Source: Halosimplex salinum
GTDB lineage: Archaea > Halobacteriota > Halobacteria > Halobacteriales > Haloarculaceae
Assembly: GCF_003730195.1 (NCBI RefSeq)
Contig: NZ_QWGG01000004.1
Span: forward strand, 124,001 to 188,000
Reading direction: 5' to 3'
Length of the DNA: 64,000 nt
Part shown: positions 10,553 to 19,905 of the stretch, in pieces
How positions within the stretch are numbered: position 1 is the stretch's first letter
How the letters are laid out: each line of letters opens with the position of its first letter
Translations under genes and position numbers: made by a program
Notes under the pieces: generated by a model
The model's database searches: none
What the model saw: the letters and a program-made list of their open reading frames with translations, nothing else
What the model was told of the DNA's origin: nothing

Positions 10553-12607
10553 ATGGCGTCCGATTCACTCGAGGACATCGACGAGGTGGTCCACCGGCCC
10601 GACCGCGAGTTCGTCGAGTCGACGAACGTCTGGGCGTTCATGCAGGCGTACGATATCGACGACTACGAGGAGCTGATCGACAGGACGACGCGCGCCGACC
10701 CGGACGAGCCGGCGTCGGGGGTCGACTGGTTCTGGGACACGATGACCGAGTACCTCGACGTGGAGTTCTTCGAGCCGTACGACCGGGTACGAGACGACAG
10801 TGAAGGCCCGCAGTTCACCGACTGGTACCCCGGGGGAACGACGAACGTCGCGCACAACGTGCTCGACCGCCACGCCGCGAGCGACGTCGAGACGCGCAAC
10901 AAGGTCGCCTGCATCTGGGAGGGAGAACCCGTCGACGAGAACGGCGAGGCGACGGAGGTCCGCGAGGTCACCTTCCACGAGCTCCACCGGCAGACCGACG
11001 AAGTCGCGAACTACCTCGACTCGAAGGGTGTCGGCGTCGGCGACACGGTCGGGCTGTACATGCCGATGGTCCCCGAGGTCGTCTCGATCCTCTACGGCTG
11101 TTTCAAGGTGGGCGCAATCGCCGTCCCCATCTTCTCGGGGTTCGGCGTCGACGCGACCGCGACGCGGATCGACGACGCGGAGTGCTCGGTGCTGTTCACC
11201 GGCGACGGCTTCTATCGCCGGGGGAGCGAGGTCCGCCTGAAGACTACCGCCGACGATGCCATCGAGGAGGCCGGCTACGTCGAGGAGGTCGTCGTCTACG
11301 ACCGGCTCGGAACGCGGGGCGACGCGGACGGCGACGCCGAGGCGAGCGACCACGACATCCCGTGGACCGAGGGCCGGGACCGCTGGTGGGACGAGGCCGT
11401 CGCGACGCGGGACGACGAGTTCGAGACGCGCGAACTCGACGCCGACCGGGAGTCGATGCTCCTCTACTCGTCTGGCACCACCGGGGAACCGAAGGGCATC
11501 GTCCACACCCACGCCGGCGTGAACGTCCAGTGCGCCAAGGAACTGTACTTCGGGTTCGACCTGCAGCCCGCAGACCGCTTTTTCTGGGTCTCCGACATCG
11601 GCTGGATGATGGGCCCGTGGACCCTGATCGGCAACCACCACTTCGGCAACACCGTCTTCATGTACGAGGGGGCGCCGGACTACCCGGACCCGGACCGCTA
11701 CTGGGAGATGATCGACCGGCACGGGATCACGCAGTTCGGTATCTCCCCCACCGCGATCCGCGCGCTCCGCAAACACGGTGACGAGTGGGTCGAGGACCAC
11801 GACCTGTCGACGCTCCGCCTGCTCGGTTCGACCGGCGAACCGTGGGACCCCGAGTCGTGGCTGTGGTTCTACGAGACGGTCGGTGGCGGCGACGCCCCGA
11901 TAATCAACATCTCCGGCGGCACCGAGATCTGCGGCTGTTTCCTGATGCCGATGCCGATACAGGACCTCAAGCCCTGCACGCTCGGGGGACCGGGGCTCGG
12001 GATGGACGTCGACATCGTCGACGAGACAGGCGAGAGCATCGCCGACACGCACGAGCGCGGGTACCTCGTCGCTCGCGACTCCTGTCCCTCGATGACGAAG
12101 TCGCTGTGGTCAGGCGACGAGCGCTACCTCCGGGAGTACTGGTCGAGGTGGGAGGACCGCTGGAACCACGGCGACTGGGCCCAGAAGGACGAGGACGGGT
12201 TCTGGTTCCTCCACGGCCGGGCCGACGACGCGCTGAACGTCGCCGGTCGGAAGGTCGGCCCCGCGGAAGTCGAGGGCGCCGCCATCGAACACGACGGCGT
12301 CAACCAGGCCGCGGCCGTCGGCGTCCCGGACGACACCACGGGGACGGCGGTCGTCCTCTACGTCGTCGTCGAGGACGATTTCGAGGAGGGCGACGACCTG
12401 CGCGAGGAGATCCGACAGCTCGTCGGCGAGGAACTGGGCAAGCCGTTCCGCCCCCGCGAGGTGCTGTTCGTCGACGAGTTCCCCAAGACCCAGAGCGGGA
12501 AGATCATCCGCCGGGCCGTCCAGGGCACCTACACCGGCGAGGATCTGGGCGACATGTCCAGCATCGAGAACCCCGACGCGCTCGACGAGATCGACGCCGC
12601 GCGGTGA
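10553..12607 (+). CDS. AMP-forming acyl-CoA synthetase (acetyl/propionyl-CoA type)
   Basis: The 684-residue enzyme belongs to the ANL superfamily. The adenylate loop SSGTTGEPKGIVHTHAG lies near residue 306, the ISGGTEICG motif and the GYLVARDSCPSM turn follow, and the acyl-adenylate lysine is K650 in KTQSGKIIRR. It activates a short-chain carboxylate to the acyl-CoA through an acyl-AMP; acetate and propionate are likely substrates from its resemblance to Acs. ATG 10553 is preferred because a GTAACTTATG box covers the earlier ATG at 10529. The SDR gene downstream (3-hydroxybutyrate dehydrogenase-like) is separated by 85 bases and has its own TATA box. Confidence 0.9.
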   Translation: MASDSLEDIDEVVHRPDREFVESTNVWAFMQAYDIDDYEELIDRTTRADPDEPASGVDWFWDTMTEYLDVEFFEPYDRVRDDSEGPQFTDWYPGGTTNVAHNVLDRHAASDVETRNKVACIWEGEPVDENGEATEVREVTFHELHRQTDEVANYLDSKGVGVGDTVGLYMPMVPEVVSILYGCFKVGAIAVPIFSGFGVDATATRIDDAECSVLFTGDGFYRRGSEVRLKTTADDAIEEAGYVEEVVVYDRLGTRGDADGDAEASDHDIPWTEGRDRWWDEAVATRDDEFETRELDADRESMLLYSSGTTGEPKGIVHTHAGVNVQCAKELYFGFDLQPADRFFWVSDIGWMMGPWTLIGNHHFGNTVFMYEGAPDYPDPDRYWEMIDRHGITQFGISPTAIRALRKHGDEWVEDHDLSTLRLLGSTGEPWDPESWLWFYETVGGGDAPIINISGGTEICGCFLMPMPIQDLKPCTLGGPGLGMDVDIVDETGESIADTHERGYLVARDSCPSMTKSLWSGDERYLREYWSRWEDRWNHGDWAQKDEDGFWFLHGRADDALNVAGRKVGPAEVEGAAIEHDGVNQAAAVGVPDDTTGTAVVLYVVVEDDFEEGDDLREEIRQLVGEELGKPFRPREVLFVDEFPKTQSGKIIRRAVQGTYTGEDLGDMSSIENPDALDEIDAAR

Positions 12608-13591: not shown

Positions 13592-14767
13592 TCAGTCCCG
13601 GTCGAGGACCGCGTTGCAGTTCGGACAGTTCGCGTGGCCGGCGTCGGCCGCGTACGTCTCCCCGCAGATCGGACAGAACTCGTTTTTCGTGGCGTTCGAG
13701 CGACTGGCCTCGGCGGTCACGTCGTCGGCGTCCTCCGGCGGCGTGTACACCCGGGTCTGGCCGGCCGGCTCGACCGAGCCGTCCGCCGAGGCGGGCGCCC
13801 CCTCACCGTCGGTCGCGGCCGGTCCGCCCGCGTCGGTGTCGGGGTCGGGGTCGGTGGCCGCCGAATCCGGCGTGTCCTCCGTCGACTCGGCGGCCTCGCT
13901 CTCGTCGCCGGAGGCAGTGCCCATCGCGAGGCGGTCCCGCGTCCCCGGCTGGACGACCTGCGGGTAGCGCTGGCCGGCGCGGATCGCCGACCGCGGCACG
14001 TCCGGCCGGCGGATCCTGACGAGCAGGCTGGCGAACAGCTGGACCCAGACGTAGGCGACTGCGAGCACGCCGGGGACGGCGACGGCTGCCAGCGGGAGCA
14101 CCGGGGCGGAGACGCCAGCCCGACTGACGGTGCCGAACGCAATCTCGGAGACGCCGTAGCGCGCGGCGGCCCCCTCCACGAGCGCCGCCTGGTTGGCGAG
14201 CGCCGCCGTGCGGCTGACCGCCGCGGTCGTCGCGACGACCGCCGAGACGAACAGCAGGAACTTGAGCAGGCGCGGCGTCGAGAAGGAGTACACCCGGTAG
14301 CCGTACGCGACGGTACGGACGAGCAGGAGGGTGTTGGCCACGCCGACCGCGGCGAGGACGTACCACGTCGCGGCGCCGCGGACCGCGGCGACGGCGACGC
14401 CGACGGCGAGGAGGGCGAGCGGCGGGACGAGCGCGACCAGCGGGCGGTCGAAGCGGTAACACTGCTCGACGTTGCCGCGGAGGTTCGTGAGGTTCCCGAC
14501 GACGTAGCGGACCGCAGCGAGCGACGGGACGAGGATCCAGAGCACCGCGAACGCGGCCGTGAGGGCCGTCGCCTCCGAGGACCAGGGGTCGACGGAGTAC
14601 GAGCCGACGGCGAGGTCCGCGATCTGCGAGACCGCGGCGCCGGTGCCGGCGAGCCAGATGAGGTAGCCGGCGGCGCCCAAAACCAGGCCGGCGAAGAGCC
14701 ACCGCTCCTCGTCCAGGAGGAGGCGGGCGGACCTGCCGAGTTCGCGTCTGGTGTCTCTGGTATCCAT
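13592..14767 (-). CDS. Polytopic membrane protein with C-terminal zinc ribbon
   Basis: The 391-residue protein has roughly eight membrane helices in residues 20-265, then an acidic linker (ESEAAESTEDTPDSAATD) and a C-terminal zinc ribbon CPICGETYAADAGHANCPNCN with two C-x2-C pairs. Zinc ribbons of this kind usually mediate protein contacts. It follows the FHA/zinc-ribbon gene with 24 bases between them, so the two are probably cotranscribed and form the end of the vWA-kinase-phosphatase cassette. No family name recognised. It could be the membrane anchor of that signalling system; this is inference from position. Confidence 0.8.
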   Translation of the reverse strand: MDTRDTRRELGRSARLLLDEERWLFAGLVLGAAGYLIWLAGTGAAVSQIADLAVGSYSVDPWSSEATALTAAFAVLWILVPSLAAVRYVVGNLTNLRGNVEQCYRFDRPLVALVPPLALLAVGVAVAAVRGAATWYVLAAVGVANTLLLVRTVAYGYRVYSFSTPRLLKFLLFVSAVVATTAAVSRTAALANQAALVEGAAARYGVSEIAFGTVSRAGVSAPVLPLAAVAVPGVLAVAYVWVQLFASLLVRIRRPDVPRSAIRAGQRYPQVVQPGTRDRLAMGTASGDESEAAESTEDTPDSAATDPDPDTDAGGPAATDGEGAPASADGSVEPAGQTRVYTPPEDADDVTAEASRSNATKNEFCPICGETYAADAGHANCPNCNAVLDRD

Positions 14768-14791
14768 GCTGGCCTGTCCGACCGGGGGGCG

Positions 14792-15985
14792 TCAGGGGGC
14801 CTCGACGCGGATGCTCGCGACGCCGGAGAGTTCGATCCGGTCGCCGGGCGAGACGGGGACGCGCTCGCCCTCGTCGAGTGAGTCGCCGTTCACGACGGTC
14901 GGGTTCTGCCCCAGCGCGACGAGGTGGAACTGCCCGCCCTCGCGGACGAACCGCACGTGCTCGCGGTGGATGCGAACCGCGTCGTCCTCGTCACCGCCGG
15001 TGTTCATCACGATACTTCGGATCGTTCGACCGACCGTATCCCCGTCCCACACTTGAACCTCGCGGTTGCGCACCACCAGCACCAGCGATTCCGGCGCCGC
15101 GTCCGTCGCTCCGGCCGACTCCTCGGACGCCGTACCCGTCGTTTCGGACGACTGGACGGAACGGTCGCCCGTGGATCCGCCGGCTCCGGCGGCCTCGCTA
15201 CCGCCCATGTCGGCGCTGCTCCCGTCCGCCGCGTCGTCCCCGTCGCTGGCGCCCTGTCGGTGGGCCGCCAGGTCCTCGCCACAGCTCGCACAGAAGTTGT
15301 CCTCGGGCTCCACGTCGGCGTCGCAGGCGGGGCACTCCGTCAGCGGCCCCGGTTCGAGCGCGGAGACGTCCTCCCCGCAACTCACGCAGAAGTTGTCCTC
15401 GGCGGCGACCGACTCGCCGCAGTTCGGACAGAACAGGTCGGCGTCGTCGGATCCGTCCGCCGCGTCTTCCCCCGCTTCGTCGTCTGTCGCAGCTTCGCCG
15501 CTCGCGTCCGACGACTCTTCTTCGGCCTCGTTCTCGGCTCCGGTCGCCGGTTCGCGTTCGGCCGCTCCGCCAGATTCGGCAGACTCTGCCGATTCTGCGC
15601 TCGCTTCGACCGAGTTCCCGGCGGTAGCGCCGGTCGCGCTCTCGTCGGTCACGCTCTCGTCGGTCGCGTTCTCACTGGTCGCGCTTTCGCCGGTCGCGTC
15701 CGCCTCCGCGTCCGGGATCGGGTCGTCCGCCCCTTCGAGCACGTCGTCGACTCGCTCCTCGGGATCGACTTCGGGTTCGCTCCCGCCGGTGACGGCCGCT
15801 TCGACGTCGTCCCCGGCGTCGTCGTCCCCCCGTGATTCGCCTCCTGTACCCGCTACTGCGTCCGCAGCGGCCTCGTGTTGCCACTCTCCGCAGTCTGAAT
15901 TCGTACACCAGCCCCCTGCCGCGGTCGGGTCGAACTCCTCCCCACAGAGGGGACATTCGACCGACTCGCCTGTGCTGTGCGACAT
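14792..15985 (-). CDS. Zinc-ribbon and FHA-domain signalling protein
   Basis: The 397-residue protein has three zinc ribbons: residues about 11-34 (CPLCGEEFD...CTNSDCGEW), about 185-207 (CPNCGESVAAEDNFCVSCGE) and about 216-238 (CPACDADVEPEDNFCASCGE). A long acidic Ser/Thr/Ala-rich linker separates the first two. The last 100 residues form an FHA domain (GDTVGRTIRSIV, HREHVRF, NPTVVNGDSL), a phosphothreonine reader. Next to a Ser/Thr kinase and PP2C phosphatase it is a good candidate for a phosphorylation-dependent scaffold; the linker may contain the phosphosites. An ACTGTTTTGG box about 33 bases upstream suggests a separate promoter. Confidence 0.88.
   Translation of the reverse strand: MSHSTGESVECPLCGEEFDPTAAGGWCTNSDCGEWQHEAAADAVAGTGGESRGDDDAGDDVEAAVTGGSEPEVDPEERVDDVLEGADDPIPDAEADATGESATSENATDESVTDESATGATAGNSVEASAESAESAESGGAAEREPATGAENEAEEESSDASGEAATDDEAGEDAADGSDDADLFCPNCGESVAAEDNFCVSCGEDVSALEPGPLTECPACDADVEPEDNFCASCGEDLAAHRQGASDGDDAADGSSADMGGSEAAGAGGSTGDRSVQSSETTGTASEESAGATDAAPESLVLVVRNREVQVWDGDTVGRTIRSIVMNTGGDEDDAVRIHREHVRFVREGGQFHLVALGQNPTVVNGDSLDEGERVPVSPGDRIELSGVASIRVEAP
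15631..15698. repeat. 15-bp in-frame tandem repeat inside FHA gene
   Basis: Four units of CGGTCGCGCTCTCGT-type sequence (15631-15690) and a partial fifth lie within the linker of the FHA/zinc-ribbon protein. On the coding strand they give repeated [A/V]-T-x-E-[S/N] pentapeptides (ATGES, ATSEN, ATDES, VTDES). The unit length is a multiple of three, so copy-number change would keep the frame. Confidence 0.75.
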
Positions 15986-16103
15986 AGTCTGTCGGCATAT
16001 ACAGGCGTGCCGCCAAAACAGTTGCCCCCGCTCCGTCCGGCGACGCGCGGCCGACCGTCGTGTGACGAACCGAGAGACCGCGGGCGATTCCGACGTCGGT
16101 CCG

Positions 16104-17252
16104 TCAGTCGCCGCCGACCAGCGTCTCCCGGTCCTCGACGGCCGCTTCCGCGCCGGCAGCCCGCGCCGGCGGGTCGTCCGGCGTCTCCGGGAGCGTCCCG
16201 TCGTGGAGGAGGAGCGCCGAGAGGTTGTCCTTCCCGCCGCGGTCGTTGGCCAGTTCGACCAGTCCGGCCGCCGCGTCGTCGAGCGACGGCGCCGAGAGGA
16301 CGTGGTCGCGGATCTCCTCGTCGGTCACCGCGCGGTCGCGGACCACGTCGGCCATCTCCTCGTCGCGACCGGCGTCGACGTACCACTCGTAGAGCTTCGC
16401 CGCCTCCGTCTGGGCGTCGAGGAGGCCGTCGCTCGTCACGAGCAGCACGTCCTCGCGGTACAGCGGGACGGTCGCCGTCTCGACCTCGACTGTCGCCGTC
16501 TCCGGGTCCGCCCGCCCGCTCCCGCCGACGGCGCGGGTGATCTCGTTCCCGCGCGGGTGGACCAGCGCCTCCACGTCGTCGATCTCTCCGGCCTCCCGGA
16601 GGCGCTGGACGACGGCGTGGTCCGTGGTGAGCGGGATGATCTCCTCGCGTGCCGCGTTGACGACGTAGGCTCGGCTGTCGCCGACCCACCCGTAGTGGAG
16701 TCGCCCGCCGGCGCAGACGCCGGCGACGACCGTCGCGTGGGCCTGTTCGCCCGCGCTCTCGGCGTAGGCGAGCACCTCCCGGTGGGCGGCGACGACCGCC
16801 TCGGCGACGGCCGACTCGAGGTCCGCGTCCCGCGGCGGACGGGGCAGCGGGTCGTCGACTGCGACGCCGAAGCCGCCGGGATCGCTCCGCGCGGCCGAGA
16901 CGGCCGTCCCCGCGAGGCGTTCGCAGACGGCCGTCGTCGCGATGTACGAGGCCGCGTCCCCCGCGTCGTGACCACCGGCGCCGTCCGCGAGCGCGAACAC
17001 CGCCGCGCTCCGGTTGGTCGGGTCGGAGTCGTCCGCCGTCGCGCGTTCGTCGGGGTCTTCCTCCGACCCAGACGACTCCGCGTCCCCCTCGGTCTCCTCG
17101 GCAGCGTCGTCCGCGTCGTCCGCGTCGTCCCAGTCGTATCCGAGGAACCCCTCGCGGTGGCCCTGTTCGAACACGGAGACGGCGACGCTGTCCTCGTTGA
17201 TTCCCCCGTCGCGTTTTCGGTCGCCAACGTCGTAGTGTGTCGCGTAATCCAT
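16104..17252 (-). CDS. PP2C-family protein serine/threonine phosphatase
   Basis: The 382-residue protein shows the PP2C metal motifs: DGGINEDSV near residue 16, FALADGAGGHDAGDAAS near 88, HYGWVGDSRAYVV near 190, VTSDGLLD near 270 and GGKDNLSALLLHDG near 348. An acidic insert of about 40 residues (DWDDADDADDAAEETEGD) separates the first two motifs. It should remove phosphate from Ser/Thr residues using two Mn or Mg ions. It follows the kinase stop codon by 2 bases, so both are translated from one message. It is the obvious antagonist of the adjacent kinase. Confidence 0.93.
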   Translation of the reverse strand: MDYATHYDVGDRKRDGGINEDSVAVSVFEQGHREGFLGYDWDDADDADDAAEETEGDAESSGSEEDPDERATADDSDPTNRSAAVFALADGAGGHDAGDAASYIATTAVCERLAGTAVSAARSDPGGFGVAVDDPLPRPPRDADLESAVAEAVVAAHREVLAYAESAGEQAHATVVAGVCAGGRLHYGWVGDSRAYVVNAAREEIIPLTTDHAVVQRLREAGEIDDVEALVHPRGNEITRAVGGSGRADPETATVEVETATVPLYREDVLLVTSDGLLDAQTEAAKLYEWYVDAGRDEEMADVVRDRAVTDEEIRDHVLSAPSLDDAAAGLVELANDRGGKDNLSALLLHDGTLPETPDDPPARAAGAEAAVEDRETLVGGD

Positions 17253-17254
17253 GG

Positions 17255-18484
17255 TCAGTCAGTCCCGAACTCGAACGTGACGCCGTAGCTGGGGTGGACG
17301 AGCGCGATCAGGTCCCCCTCGCGCAGCCCGTACAGCTCCGGCGGCACCTCACCGTTCCGGTCGGTGGCGTCCTCACCGCGTTCCTCGAGTCGCTCGCGTC
17401 CCGCCTCGCTGAGCACGCGCTGCCAGCCGCCACCCGTCTGGACGTACGTGCCGTTGAGGCTCCGGTCGCGGATGAACCACTCCCCGTCCGCGTCCGTGTC
17501 GAACTGCACCTGCACCGTCGAGATGTACTCGTCGTCGTCCTCGACGACGATAGAGGAGCGCGGCCCCTCTGCGTACCGGCGCCCGATCGTGTCGCCCGGG
17601 TAGACGGTGTACGTTTCGCCCGCCTGCGTGTACCGCACCGTCGCCGAGGGCGGCGGACTCGGGTCGCGATCCTCCAGCACGCGCTTCATCGCCGTCGCGT
17701 TGCGATACCGGTCCTCGTAGTCGGTCTGTGTCGCCTTCTCGACGATCTCCGCGAGATACGGCTCACAGTCCGCGCCGAAATCGCGCGGATCGACGCCGTC
17801 CTTCCGCGGGACGGTCCCCTTGAGCAGGTAGAGGAGGATCTTCCCGACGGAGTAGACGTCCGACCAGGGGCCCTGTCGCATCTCCGTCTGGTCGGCCTCG
17901 GCGACTTCCCGCGGCTTGTACGGACCGACGATCGTCGTCTGGTCGGCCGAGTTGCCGCCGGCGTCGAACCCCGTCGCCGTGTTGAAGTCGATGAGCACCG
18001 GCGTCACGGTCCCCCCGCGGTGGGTGATCATCACGTTGTCCGGTTTCAGGTCCCGGTAGACGATCTCGTTCTCGTGGAGGAAGCTCATCGCGTCACAGAG
18101 GTCGATGCCGATCTGGCGGACCTCGTCGATGTCGTCCAGCGGGCCGGTCCGCCGGATCGCGTCGTCGAGTTCGTAGCCGTCGACGAGTTCGACGACCACC
18201 ACGGGGGTCCCGCGGTCCTCCGTCACCTCGACGAGCGACATGATGCTGGGGTGTCCCCCCGCTTCTGCGATCGCCTCGAGCGTCTCCGCCTCCTTCTCGA
18301 AGTAGAGCGTGACGATGTCGCGGTCGTTCTGGCTCCCCTCGTAGTTGGGGTACTTGAGCGCGACGCGCTCGCCGGTCTGGACGTCGGTCGCGCCGAACAC
18401 CTTGGCGAACCCGCCCTCGCCGACCACCTCGCCGAGTTCGTACCGGCCGACGACCAGGTCCCCCGCCTCCGGCGACGCCGTCAT
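17255..18484 (-). CDS. Ser/Thr protein kinase with C-terminal FHA domain
   Basis: The 409-residue protein has a Hanks-type kinase domain (about 14-272): glycine loop VGEGGFAKV, VALK with K44, catalytic loop YRDLKPDN with D145 and N150, and D167 in LIDFNTAT, where the usual DFG is DFN. Residues about 290-409 form an FHA domain (TIGRR at 299-303, then the NGT loop at 344-346). Kinase and phosphothreonine reader in one chain suggest self-recognition or recruitment of phosphorylated partners. ATG 18484 overlaps the TGA of the vWA gene (ATGA), so translation is coupled. The PP2C gene follows within 2 bases. No transmembrane segment. Confidence 0.93.
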   Translation of the reverse strand: MTASPEAGDLVVGRYELGEVVGEGGFAKVFGATDVQTGERVALKYPNYEGSQNDRDIVTLYFEKEAETLEAIAEAGGHPSIMSLVEVTEDRGTPVVVVELVDGYELDDAIRRTGPLDDIDEVRQIGIDLCDAMSFLHENEIVYRDLKPDNVMITHRGGTVTPVLIDFNTATGFDAGGNSADQTTIVGPYKPREVAEADQTEMRQGPWSDVYSVGKILLYLLKGTVPRKDGVDPRDFGADCEPYLAEIVEKATQTDYEDRYRNATAMKRVLEDRDPSPPPSATVRYTQAGETYTVYPGDTIGRRYAEGPRSSIVVEDDDEYISTVQVQFDTDADGEWFIRDRSLNGTYVQTGGGWQRVLSEAGRERLEERGEDATDRNGEVPPELYGLREGDLIALVHPSYGVTFEFGTD

Positions 18485-19668
18485 TCTACCCGCGAGTCGT
18501 CGACGATCCGCGTGGCCTCGTTGCGCTCCTGCCGGCCGCCCTCGTCGACGAGGCGCGTCTGCTGTTTGGCCTCCTGGACGACGGCGGTGTCCTCGCCGTG
18601 GACGCGAGTCATCTTCTCCACCTCGGTCTCGGCGGCGGCGACGTTGCCCTTCCCGAGTTCCGTCCGCACGACCGTCTGGCGGTGGTCGAGCGACACGTCC
18701 TCGTTGTGCTCGGCGAGTCTGGTGTTGTCGTCGGTGTACTCGACGGCGATGCGGTCGGTCGCCTCGCGGCCCGACGCCGACAGCGTCACGTCGACGAGCG
18801 TCTCCTCGCCCGTCGTCTCCCGACTCGGCGCGTGGACCTTCAGGACGACGCGCTGGTCCTCGCGCTCGGCCAGGTCCGGGAGGGGAACCCGTGCGGCGTT
18901 GCCCCGCCAGTTCACGTCGACCTCCTGTGCCTGCGGGAGCGCGCGGTACACCTCGCTCACCTCGACACCGGCCGCCGCGTCGAGTTCGATGTGGGCGTCC
19001 GTGGCGACGACGGACTGGGCCTGCTCGACGGCTGCGCCGAAGAACGACTCGATGTCGCCGGGCGATTCGAGATGGGTCCACTCTCCGCGGGCGGTCGTCC
19101 CGAGGGTGCGGATGGTCTCCTCGTCGTAGTCGGTGCCGATACCCGCCGAGAGGATCCGGATGCCCGACTCGTCGATGTCCTTCGCGAGTTCGCGGAAGTC
19201 GCCGGGTTCGTGGGAGTTGTCCTTGCCGTCGGAGAGGAGGAGGATCCGGCGGACGGCGTCGTCGGTCTCCGGGCGGTAGCCCAGCGAGTCGAGGGCGGTT
19301 CTCGCGCTGTCGAGGCCGTCGTACATGTCGGTGCCGCCGCCGGCGCCGAGGTCGTCGACGCGGCTCATCGCCGCCTCGCGTGAGGTCTCGCTCCACTTCG
19401 TCGGGCGCATGACGACCGACGCGTCCGAGTCGAACGCCACGATCCCCACGTAGTCGTCGGGTTCGAGCAGTCCGAACACCCACGAGGCGCCCTCGCGGGC
19501 CTGGTCGAGTTTCGCGCCGTCCATCGATCCGCTCGTGTCCAGACAGAGGACGATGTGGCGCTCGCTCACCCCCGTCTGCGTCCCGGGCTCGACGTCGACC
19601 GTCGCCGTCAGCGTCGCCCCGTCCGCCGGGACGTACGGTCGGTTGACGTCAGTCTCGATCGTTACCAT
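18481..19668 (-). CDS. von Willebrand factor type A domain protein
   Basis: The 395-residue protein has a VWA domain at about 36-215 with a complete MIDAS: D-T-S-G-S at 44-48 (LCLDTSGSMDG), the threonine in GGGTDMYDG and the aspartate in LLLSDGKDN. A beta-rich segment follows (HIELDAAAGVEVSEVY onward), then a C-terminal helical part rich in charged residues. MIDAS domains bind ligand through a divalent metal. It is the first gene of the kinase-phosphatase operon and overlaps the kinase start by four bases. A GGATAAAAGTAC box about 35 bases upstream is the likely promoter of the operon. Confidence 0.92.
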   Translation of the reverse strand: MVTIETDVNRPYVPADGATLTATVDVEPGTQTGVSERHIVLCLDTSGSMDGAKLDQAREGASWVFGLLEPDDYVGIVAFDSDASVVMRPTKWSETSREAAMSRVDDLGAGGGTDMYDGLDSARTALDSLGYRPETDDAVRRILLLSDGKDNSHEPGDFRELAKDIDESGIRILSAGIGTDYDEETIRTLGTTARGEWTHLESPGDIESFFGAAVEQAQSVVATDAHIELDAAAGVEVSEVYRALPQAQEVDVNWRGNAARVPLPDLAEREDQRVVLKVHAPSRETTGEETLVDVTLSASGREATDRIAVEYTDDNTRLAEHNEDVSLDHRQTVVRTELGKGNVAAAETEVEKMTRVHGEDTAVVQEAKQQTRLVDEGGRQERNEATRIVDDSRVE

Positions 19669-19773
19669 ATGTCGCCCAGTCGCTCTCGCCCCGTATGTAC
19701 TTTTATCCGCTCCGGCGGGGACTCGCGGGCGCCACTGGGCCCCAACCGGGGCGCTACGCGGAGAACCAGTGCG

Positions 19774-19905
19774 TCACGCGAACACGCTCTGGATCACGTC
19801 GCCGAACCGCAGGAGCAGGACACCGCCCACCAGCATCGCCAGCAGCCACAGGAACGTGATTATCACGCCCTGCCGGACGTACGTGTCCTCGTCAGTCGTT
19901 GTCAT
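19774..19905 (-). CDS. 43-residue single-span membrane protein
   Basis: A short frame encodes MTTTDEDTYVRQGVI..., with an acidic N-terminus, one membrane helix at about residues 13-33 (ITFLWLLAMLVGGVLLL) and a short tail ending DVIQSVFA. Start support comes from an ACTTTTTGAGTC box about 30 bases upstream. It lies just upstream of the vWA operon on the same strand, 105 bases away, so it might be linked to it. Such tiny membrane proteins are common in haloarchaea and often unannotated; function unknown. Confidence 0.65.
   Translation of the reverse strand: MTTTDEDTYVRQGVIITFLWLLAMLVGGVLLLRFGDVIQSVFA

Follow-up and report, generated by a model that had tools for sequence, protein, structure and literature searches.

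A probable ArnA/ArnB-like phospho-switch of Halobacteria that includes a kinase and a PP2C phosphatase, and a candidate threonine tag on its client proteins

Introduction

In Sulfolobus, the zinc finger of ArnA holds unphosphorylated ArnB loosely; ArnC phosphorylates threonine residues of the C-terminal bundle of ArnB, and the forkhead-associated (FHA) domain of ArnA then binds it tightly, with PP2A reported as the phosphatase (PMC12852372, PMC6509490). ArnB-like structures have also been mentioned for Halorubrum (PMC12852372). In this work we analyzed a cassette of five genes located at positions 13592-19668 of a 64,000-nucleotide stretch of Halosimplex salinum DNA (contig NZ_QWGG01000004.1, positions 124,001 to 188,000; hereafter the window), which is part of a genome of 5.07 Mb. 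The cassette encodes a von Willebrand factor A (vWA) protein, a Hanks-type Ser/Thr kinase, a PP2C phosphatase, a zinc-ribbon/FHA protein (hereafter the adaptor) and a membrane protein, and by comparative analysis it appears to hold counterparts of all four Sulfolobus activities. Because the vWA protein has the architecture of ArnB and the adaptor resembles ArnA, the cassette is probably a phospho-switch of the ArnA/ArnB kind that brings along a kinase and a PP2C.

The likeness comprises a scaffold made of a vWA domain, a beta-sandwich and a helical bundle, a partner with zinc finger and FHA domain, a Hanks kinase and a phosphatase. Unlike in Sulfolobus, one cluster encodes both the haloarchaeal kinase and the phosphatase, a PP2C takes the place of PP2A, the kinase carries an FHA domain of its own, and the adaptor has three zinc ribbons; moreover, the membrane protein bears a short threonine motif (hereafter the tag), and in relatives the cassette can be accompanied by islands of similarly tagged client proteins.

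The first-pass annotation of the window had likened the parts of the cassette to the Fha-PpkA-PppA proteins of type VI secretion systems (T6SS) and to the TerY-P modules of Ter stress systems, a relationship that structure and profile comparisons did not bear out, since both led to Sulfolobus ArnA/ArnB. With the TerY-P triad the cassette shares the joint encoding of vWA protein, kinase and PP2C, but its vWA protein has the three-domain ArnB-like form, its kinase is fused to an FHA domain rather than to a zinc ribbon or OB-fold, and Ter genes are missing. The kinase, PP2C and FHA protein recall the T6SS set, from which the cassette differs by another scaffold and by the absence of T6SS genes. 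The GarA/OdhI proteins of Actinobacteria, with their kinases PknB/PknG, likewise combine an FHA domain with a nearby conserved phosphothreonine motif (ETTS), which in GarA is followed by VF and would thus fit T-x-V-F; unlike here, where the motifs lie on partners and clients, the GarA motif belongs to the FHA protein itself, which controls metabolic enzymes. Our literature search found no description of the tag or of the cassette, and we know of no comparable modular client code in archaea.

Results

The vWA protein and the adaptor resemble ArnB and ArnA

Unless another genome is named, positions refer to the window and features lie on its minus strand. The vWA protein (395 aa; 18481..19668) matches Pfam VWA (3.5e-19) and consists of a vWA domain with a metal-ion-dependent adhesion site (MIDAS), a beta-sandwich, a C-terminal helical bundle and a short tail. 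The MIDAS residues DxSxS..T..D are conserved among its homologues. In the AF2 model (pLDDT 91.5) the vWA domain is inserted into the beta-sandwich, after which the helical bundle follows. Structural comparison with VIA aligned 351 residues with the 381-residue chain of Sulfolobus ArnB taken from the ArnAB complex (8s05_A, Z 34.5), while ArnE/vWA2 (5a8j) reached Z 30.3 and matches restricted to the vWA domain at most about 24. The same chain was the best PDB match of the vWA family profile (E 3.1e-22; next match 8.6e-17).

The adaptor (397 aa; 14792..15985) matches Zn_ribbon_3 (8e-15) and FHA (4.5e-7) in Pfam. Its family profile found ArnA (8s05_C, E 4.1e-6) with a match that spans both ribbon and FHA domain, and also the FHA domains of GarA and Rad53. 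Ribbon 1 (CxxC-x12-CxxxxC, 15890..15955) has nearly invariant cysteines, ribbon 2 (15368..15433) matches Zn_Ribbon_1 and has conserved cysteines, and ribbon 3 (15269..15340) matches Zn_ribbon_3; the FHA domain (14828..15004, Pfam) keeps its Arg and Asn. The three-domain fold of ArnB, homology to ArnB and a zinc-finger partner with a C-terminal FHA domain are thus all found in the cassette.

The cassette is conserved as a unit in part of the Halobacteria

Relatives of the PP2C were found in 43 of 292 sampled genomes of Halobacteria, belonging to 18 of 77 genera. The cassette was present in 34 of the 38 genomes fetched, and the four without it were those with the weakest PP2C matches (L063-L066). 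The detailed analysis covered about 40 cassette loci and four islands, and sequences from one genus are not independent of each other. Two gene orders were distinguished. Type I, with the order vWA-kinase-PP2C-FHA-membrane, occurs in Halosimplex, Haloarcula and Halomicroarcula, whereas type II (FHA-vWA-kinase-PP2C) occurs in Halobiforma, Halovivax and others, and often adds a second kinase as well as a PP2C with its own C-terminal FHA-like domain. A divergently oriented neighbour of type II cassettes, which has no Pfam match, proved to be a protein with six transmembrane (TM) helices, a TRIF tag and a zinc ribbon. The core of the cassette stays together while flanking genes vary from locus to locus; two type I loci from Haloarculaceae genomes, for instance, are flanked by plastocyanin/azurin-type copper proteins (L036:1289-4807 and L041:3520-4359), with COX1 in addition in L036.

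The vWA protein of the window is 87% identical to that of Halosimplex pelagicum. Pairwise distances of the five proteins are correlated with r values of 0.93-0.98, values which shared ancestry alone would also make high. In a scan with the vWA protein, the cassette was found only in Halobacteria, the remaining loci being generic vWA proteins, and a kinase profile run across 345 genomes of the phylum gave matches in Halobacteria only; relatives may still occur in other archaeal phyla. In one bacterial vWA locus (L147) a kinase and a PP2C lie 6 kb away.

Conservation of the gene order across Halobacteria, which the first-pass annotation had proposed to check, was therefore observed rather than its loss. 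Its suggestion of a stand-alone haloarchaeal phospho-signalling system is supported by this order and by the lack of TerD and VipB anywhere in the genome, which also bears out its remark that secretion and Ter genes are missing.

Kinase and PP2C

With 107.9 bits, the kinase (409 aa; 17255..18484; Pkinase 1.6e-30, FHA 8.9e-7) is the one strong match to Pkinase that the genome contains, the runner-up reaching 36.4 bits. In its C-terminal FHA domain (17435..17590, Pfam), the phosphate-binding residues R302, S322 and N344 are invariant, and with them G301 and G345, in 24 of 24 sequences; Gln replaces the His of SxxH. The activation loop contains T183-T-I-V (17927..17938), which is similar to the tail motifs described below and occurs as [QGE]TTI[VL]GP in every type I kinase. 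The kinase has DFN instead of the canonical DFG and KPRE instead of APE. At three loci with related cassettes (L047:8903-10273; L059:8776-10092 and 10993-12249; L062:5754-7043), the activation segment of the kinases accommodates a zinc ribbon of two cysteine pairs, placed between DFN and KPPE/KAPE; through this insertion, activation of these kinases could respond to zinc or to the redox state.

The PP2C (382 aa; 16104..17252; PP2C_2 2.7e-11) is the sole PP2C_2 match in the genome. PP2Cs of L049, L051-L058, L060 and L061 continue after an ET-x-I motif into an FHA-like C-terminal domain.

A threonine motif recurs in the cassette proteins

The tail of the vWA protein has the consensus [AN]T-x-[IV]-V, represented in the window by T386-R-I-V (18502..18513), whose threonine is nearly invariant in 27 sequences. 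A second motif, T371-R-L-V (18547..18558), lies in the last helix, where type I sequences keep [QE]T-x-[ILM]-V. The PP2C tail has the consensus [ED]T-x-[IVL] (window: E376-T-L-V, 16116..16127). When T-x-[IVLM] was counted against shuffled sequences, it was present in 34 of 37 vWA tails (shuffle mean 9.3) and in all 36 PP2C tails (mean 17.4, maximum 27), while control linkers of the PP2C (2/20) and of the FHA protein (2/10 and 2/30) were at or below the shuffled level. All 17 membrane-protein linkers also contained it, a count which by itself is weak given a shuffle mean of 11.3.

The strength of the motif in this linker lies in a fixed TRV[FY] rather than in that count. The membrane protein (391 aa; 13592..14767) has, by predicted topology and homologue alignment, about six TM helices, a disordered linker, the tag and a zinc ribbon, with the C-terminal tail predicted to be cytosolic. 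Its only Pfam match is a sub-threshold zinc ribbon, and its AF2 model (pLDDT 65) gave no PDB match below E 0.001. The linker (residues 264-359) diverges freely apart from the tag T338-R-V-Y-T-P-P (13736..13756): in the alignment of 11 sequences its sole invariant residues are T338, R339, V340 and P343, in the pattern T338-R-V-[FY]-x-P. The double-CxxC C-terminal ribbon (13616..13675) likewise keeps C365, C368, C381 and C384 in the 11 homologues.

The stricter pattern T-x-[IVLM]-[IVLMFY] was found in 8 of 8 membrane linkers (0.6 expected) and in 32 of 37 vWA tails (1.7 expected), but in only 19 of 36 PP2C tails (4.1 expected). It was dropped as a common definition because it missed so many of the latter, and two definitions were used instead: T-x-[IV] for the cassette tails and T-x-[VIL]-[FY] for the client tag. 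On sequence grounds, candidate phosphothreonine sites lie in four places: the tails of the vWA protein and of the PP2C, the activation loop of the kinase and the linker of the membrane protein. Two sources of phosphothreonine peptides for the FHA domains had been proposed in the first-pass annotation; the vWA protein stands, with its tail as candidate site, whereas the FHA-protein linkers were rejected as ligands, the motif being rare in them.

Islands of tagged proteins surround the cassette in some relatives

In four genomes (G229, G285, G174 and G112) the cassette is found amid proteins whose C-terminal part is a double-CxxC ribbon with an adjoining T-x-[VIL]-[FY]. Three of these islands (loci L228-L236; G229 C1 2388796-2426650, G285 C64 8800-50282 and G174 C5 169180-194142) comprise 7-12 ribbon and motif proteins of unrelated fold. 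We scanned open reading frames (ORFs) with a C-terminal ribbon and tested their flanks for T-x-[VIL]-[FY], with the expectation taken from shuffled flanks. The motif was present in 32 of 42 such ORFs in the islands, where 2.8 were expected, in 17 of 18 at type I loci and in 10 of 13 at type II loci (0.2 expected in each case). It was absent from all eight C-terminal ribbon ORFs of cassette-free haloarchaea, a small control, and from all six of the bacterial vWA loci; the difference between islands and cassette-free genomes was significant (Fisher p 8e-5). Since some of the island sequences had first drawn attention to the motif, a held-out part of previously unexamined ORFs was evaluated separately. 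It contained the motif in 19 of 24 cases, where 1.5 were expected and none of 500 shuffles gave more than 6.

Threonine is required at the first position: Thr variants of the motif numbered 72 against 3.4 expected, compared with 6 against 3.9 for Ser, and the S, D, A and G variants were inside or close to the shuffle range. This preference for Thr over Ser is expected if phosphothreonine-binding FHA domains are the readers. The motif stands before or after the ribbon and is therefore not part of the ribbon fold, and some proteins have a bare tag at the C terminus without a ribbon. The folds of the clients are unrelated, including PQQ propellers, cold-shock proteins, HrcA-type winged helix, TBP-like, HYPK UBA, HEAT, pentapeptide-repeat and DnaJ-TM proteins. 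One of them, a TBP-domain protein with a zinc ribbon and a C-terminal SNTQVYNP tag (L236:3364-4143), suggests a link to transcription. A further family, with a long N-terminal region, a C-terminal FHA domain and often T-x-V-Y motifs, occurs in three islands (L229:17429-18556, with a Pfam FHA match of 2.3e-8; L047:4524-5714; L049:5262-6386).

In the window, the membrane protein was the only tagged client found, and the zinc-ribbon proteins inspected elsewhere in the genome, which were the best matches only, were untagged.

Gene junctions and putative promoters

Gene calls were ORF-based throughout. That five genes with the above domains run in one direction, as the first-pass annotation had it, was confirmed by the ORFs, by their coding-type third-position GC (0.82-0.94) and by the Pfam matches; the ATGA overlap of the vWA and kinase genes and the gap of 2 nt between kinase and PP2C genes are exact in the sequence. 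The overlap is confined to Halosimplex (7-144 nt in other relatives), while the kinase/PP2C junction is tight in all relatives measured (-4 to +3 nt).

Conserved DNA precedes the ATG of the vWA gene (GATAAAAGTACATACGGGGCGAGAGCGA; 19669..19711) and is a probable promoter. The PP2C and FHA genes are separated by 118 nt, and conserved DNA lies immediately 5' of the FHA gene (GGGGCAACTGTTTTG..; 15986..16035), a possible second promoter; at locus L073 the FHA and membrane genes are apart from the rest and inverted. For these reasons the FHA and membrane genes may have their own promoter, and a single five-gene message is not established. A 43-aa ORF with a single predicted TM helix upstream of the vWA gene (19774..19905) is a possible extra member. 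It is conserved in Halosimplex and in two metagenome-assembled genomes, with 64-74% identity in L072, L032, L033 and L079; in L073, a 60% match lies about 3.7 kb away from the vWA ORF. No Rfam family was found in the cassette region.

Discussion

From these data we infer phosphorylation of the motifs, their reading by FHA domains, docking of the ribbons on the vWA protein and the function in the cell along the following lines. The vWA protein would serve as an ArnB-like scaffold on which the ArnA-like adaptor and the tagged clients dock through their zinc ribbons, as the ArnA finger does on ArnB. The substrates of the Hanks kinase would be the threonines of T-x-[VI]-hydrophobic motifs in its own activation loop, in the tails of the vWA protein and of the PP2C, and in the client tag; the FHA domains of kinase and adaptor would bind the phosphothreonines and tighten the complex, and PP2C would reverse the phosphorylation. 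In the window, assembly of the complex would take place at the membrane, because the only tagged client found there is the membrane protein with its predicted cytosolic tail, whereas in relatives the same tag would recruit many soluble proteins. An ArnA/ArnB-type switch of this kind, with its own writer and eraser, ribbon docking and a phosphothreonine tag read by FHA domains, seems to us somewhat more probable than all other explanations taken together. To the wider proposal we give an even chance: T-x-[VIL]-[FY], in most cases accompanied by a C-terminal ribbon, would be a portable phosphothreonine recruitment tag, served by a dedicated kinase and PP2C and by FHA readers, with the ArnB-like scaffold gathering clients into a switchable assembly.

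Several observations weigh against this interpretation. The bacterial vWA protein 4fx5 is structurally closer to the vWA protein (VIA Z 37.1) than ArnB is, so that the three-domain fold alone is no proof of Arn function. Pfam ArnB_C (PF18677) is not among the families listed for members of the vWA family, and its single match in the genome is sub-threshold and lies elsewhere. In the adaptor FHA domain the canonical Ser is replaced by His in type I (IHREH), and in type II, where most sequences retain Ser, the Arg of GR is missing in a few. Loci L042, L043, L068 and L050 yielded no membrane protein, ten of the 42 island ribbon proteins are without the motif, and the vWA and PP2C motifs (T-x-[IV]) are looser than the client tag.

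Among the other explanations, the strongest is that T-x-[VIL]-[FY] and the ribbon tail are no phosphosite but a signal for docking, sorting or turnover, to which the vWA protein or a protease system binds directly. Often the motif stands at the very C terminus or close to it, even in proteins without a ribbon, as many degrons and docking peptides do, and vWA domains are known to bind peptides; we nevertheless consider such a signal unlikely in view of the strict use of Thr over Ser, the clustering with kinase, phosphatase and FHA genes, and the presence of comparable motifs in the PP2C tail and in the activation loop of the kinase. We regard as improbable that the cassette serves conflict or defence in the manner of TerY-P or vWA-effector systems, with the clients as variable effectors. 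Such a system would suit the patchy distribution and the variable client islands, and the vWA, kinase and PP2C trio is that of TerY-P, a module that antiphage systems employ (PMC11090510). However, even with E raised to 10, no PADLOC model matched the vWA, PP2C or membrane proteins; matches of the FHA protein were at chance level, and the kinase was recognized solely as a Hanks kinase of generic type. Among ten island proteins, matches were limited to cold-shock and HEAT-type models, and the clients scanned contain no nuclease or toxin domain. In addition, the neighbours of the cassette in the window resemble acyl-CoA synthetase, short-chain dehydrogenase/reductase and ABC transporter genes. 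Membership in TerY-P or defence systems was rejected on the PADLOC result for vWA protein and PP2C and on the FHA fusion of the kinase, and a Ter stress system on the lack of any TerD-family protein in the genome.

We judge it no less improbable that the cassette is a true haloarchaeal Arn system that specifically represses archaellum genes in nutrient-rich conditions. The homology to ArnA/ArnB would fit, as would two archaellin genes that share the contig with the cassette at a distance of about 37-44 kb (G000:C23:93860-100492, outside the window), but this proximity is known from this genome alone, most sampled Halobacteria lack the cassette, and the presence of PQQ propellers and cold-shock proteins among the clients speaks for broader functions. 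A post-translational activator similar to T6SS PpkA/PppA/Fha, serving a large machine encoded elsewhere in the genome, would account for the trio of kinase, PP2C and FHA protein; the failure to find a VipB/TssC sheath gene in the genome largely refutes it, as well as any T6SS relationship, and with the vWA fold and adaptor matching ArnB and ArnA we consider it very improbable indeed.

The substrates and the logic of archaeal Ser/Thr phosphorylation are mostly unknown. The cassette supplies a kinase, a phosphatase and candidate readers together with a sequence rule that would predict substrates, in genera that can be cultured (Haloarcula, Halosimplex). If the recruitment code is indeed portable, it could be tested with few peptides and used as a tool for regulated protein assembly; the tag, if confirmed, would be a new principle, while the cassette itself varies the known Arn theme. 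An ArnA/ArnB switch, studied so far in Sulfolobales, would extend to Halobacteria as a self-contained unit.

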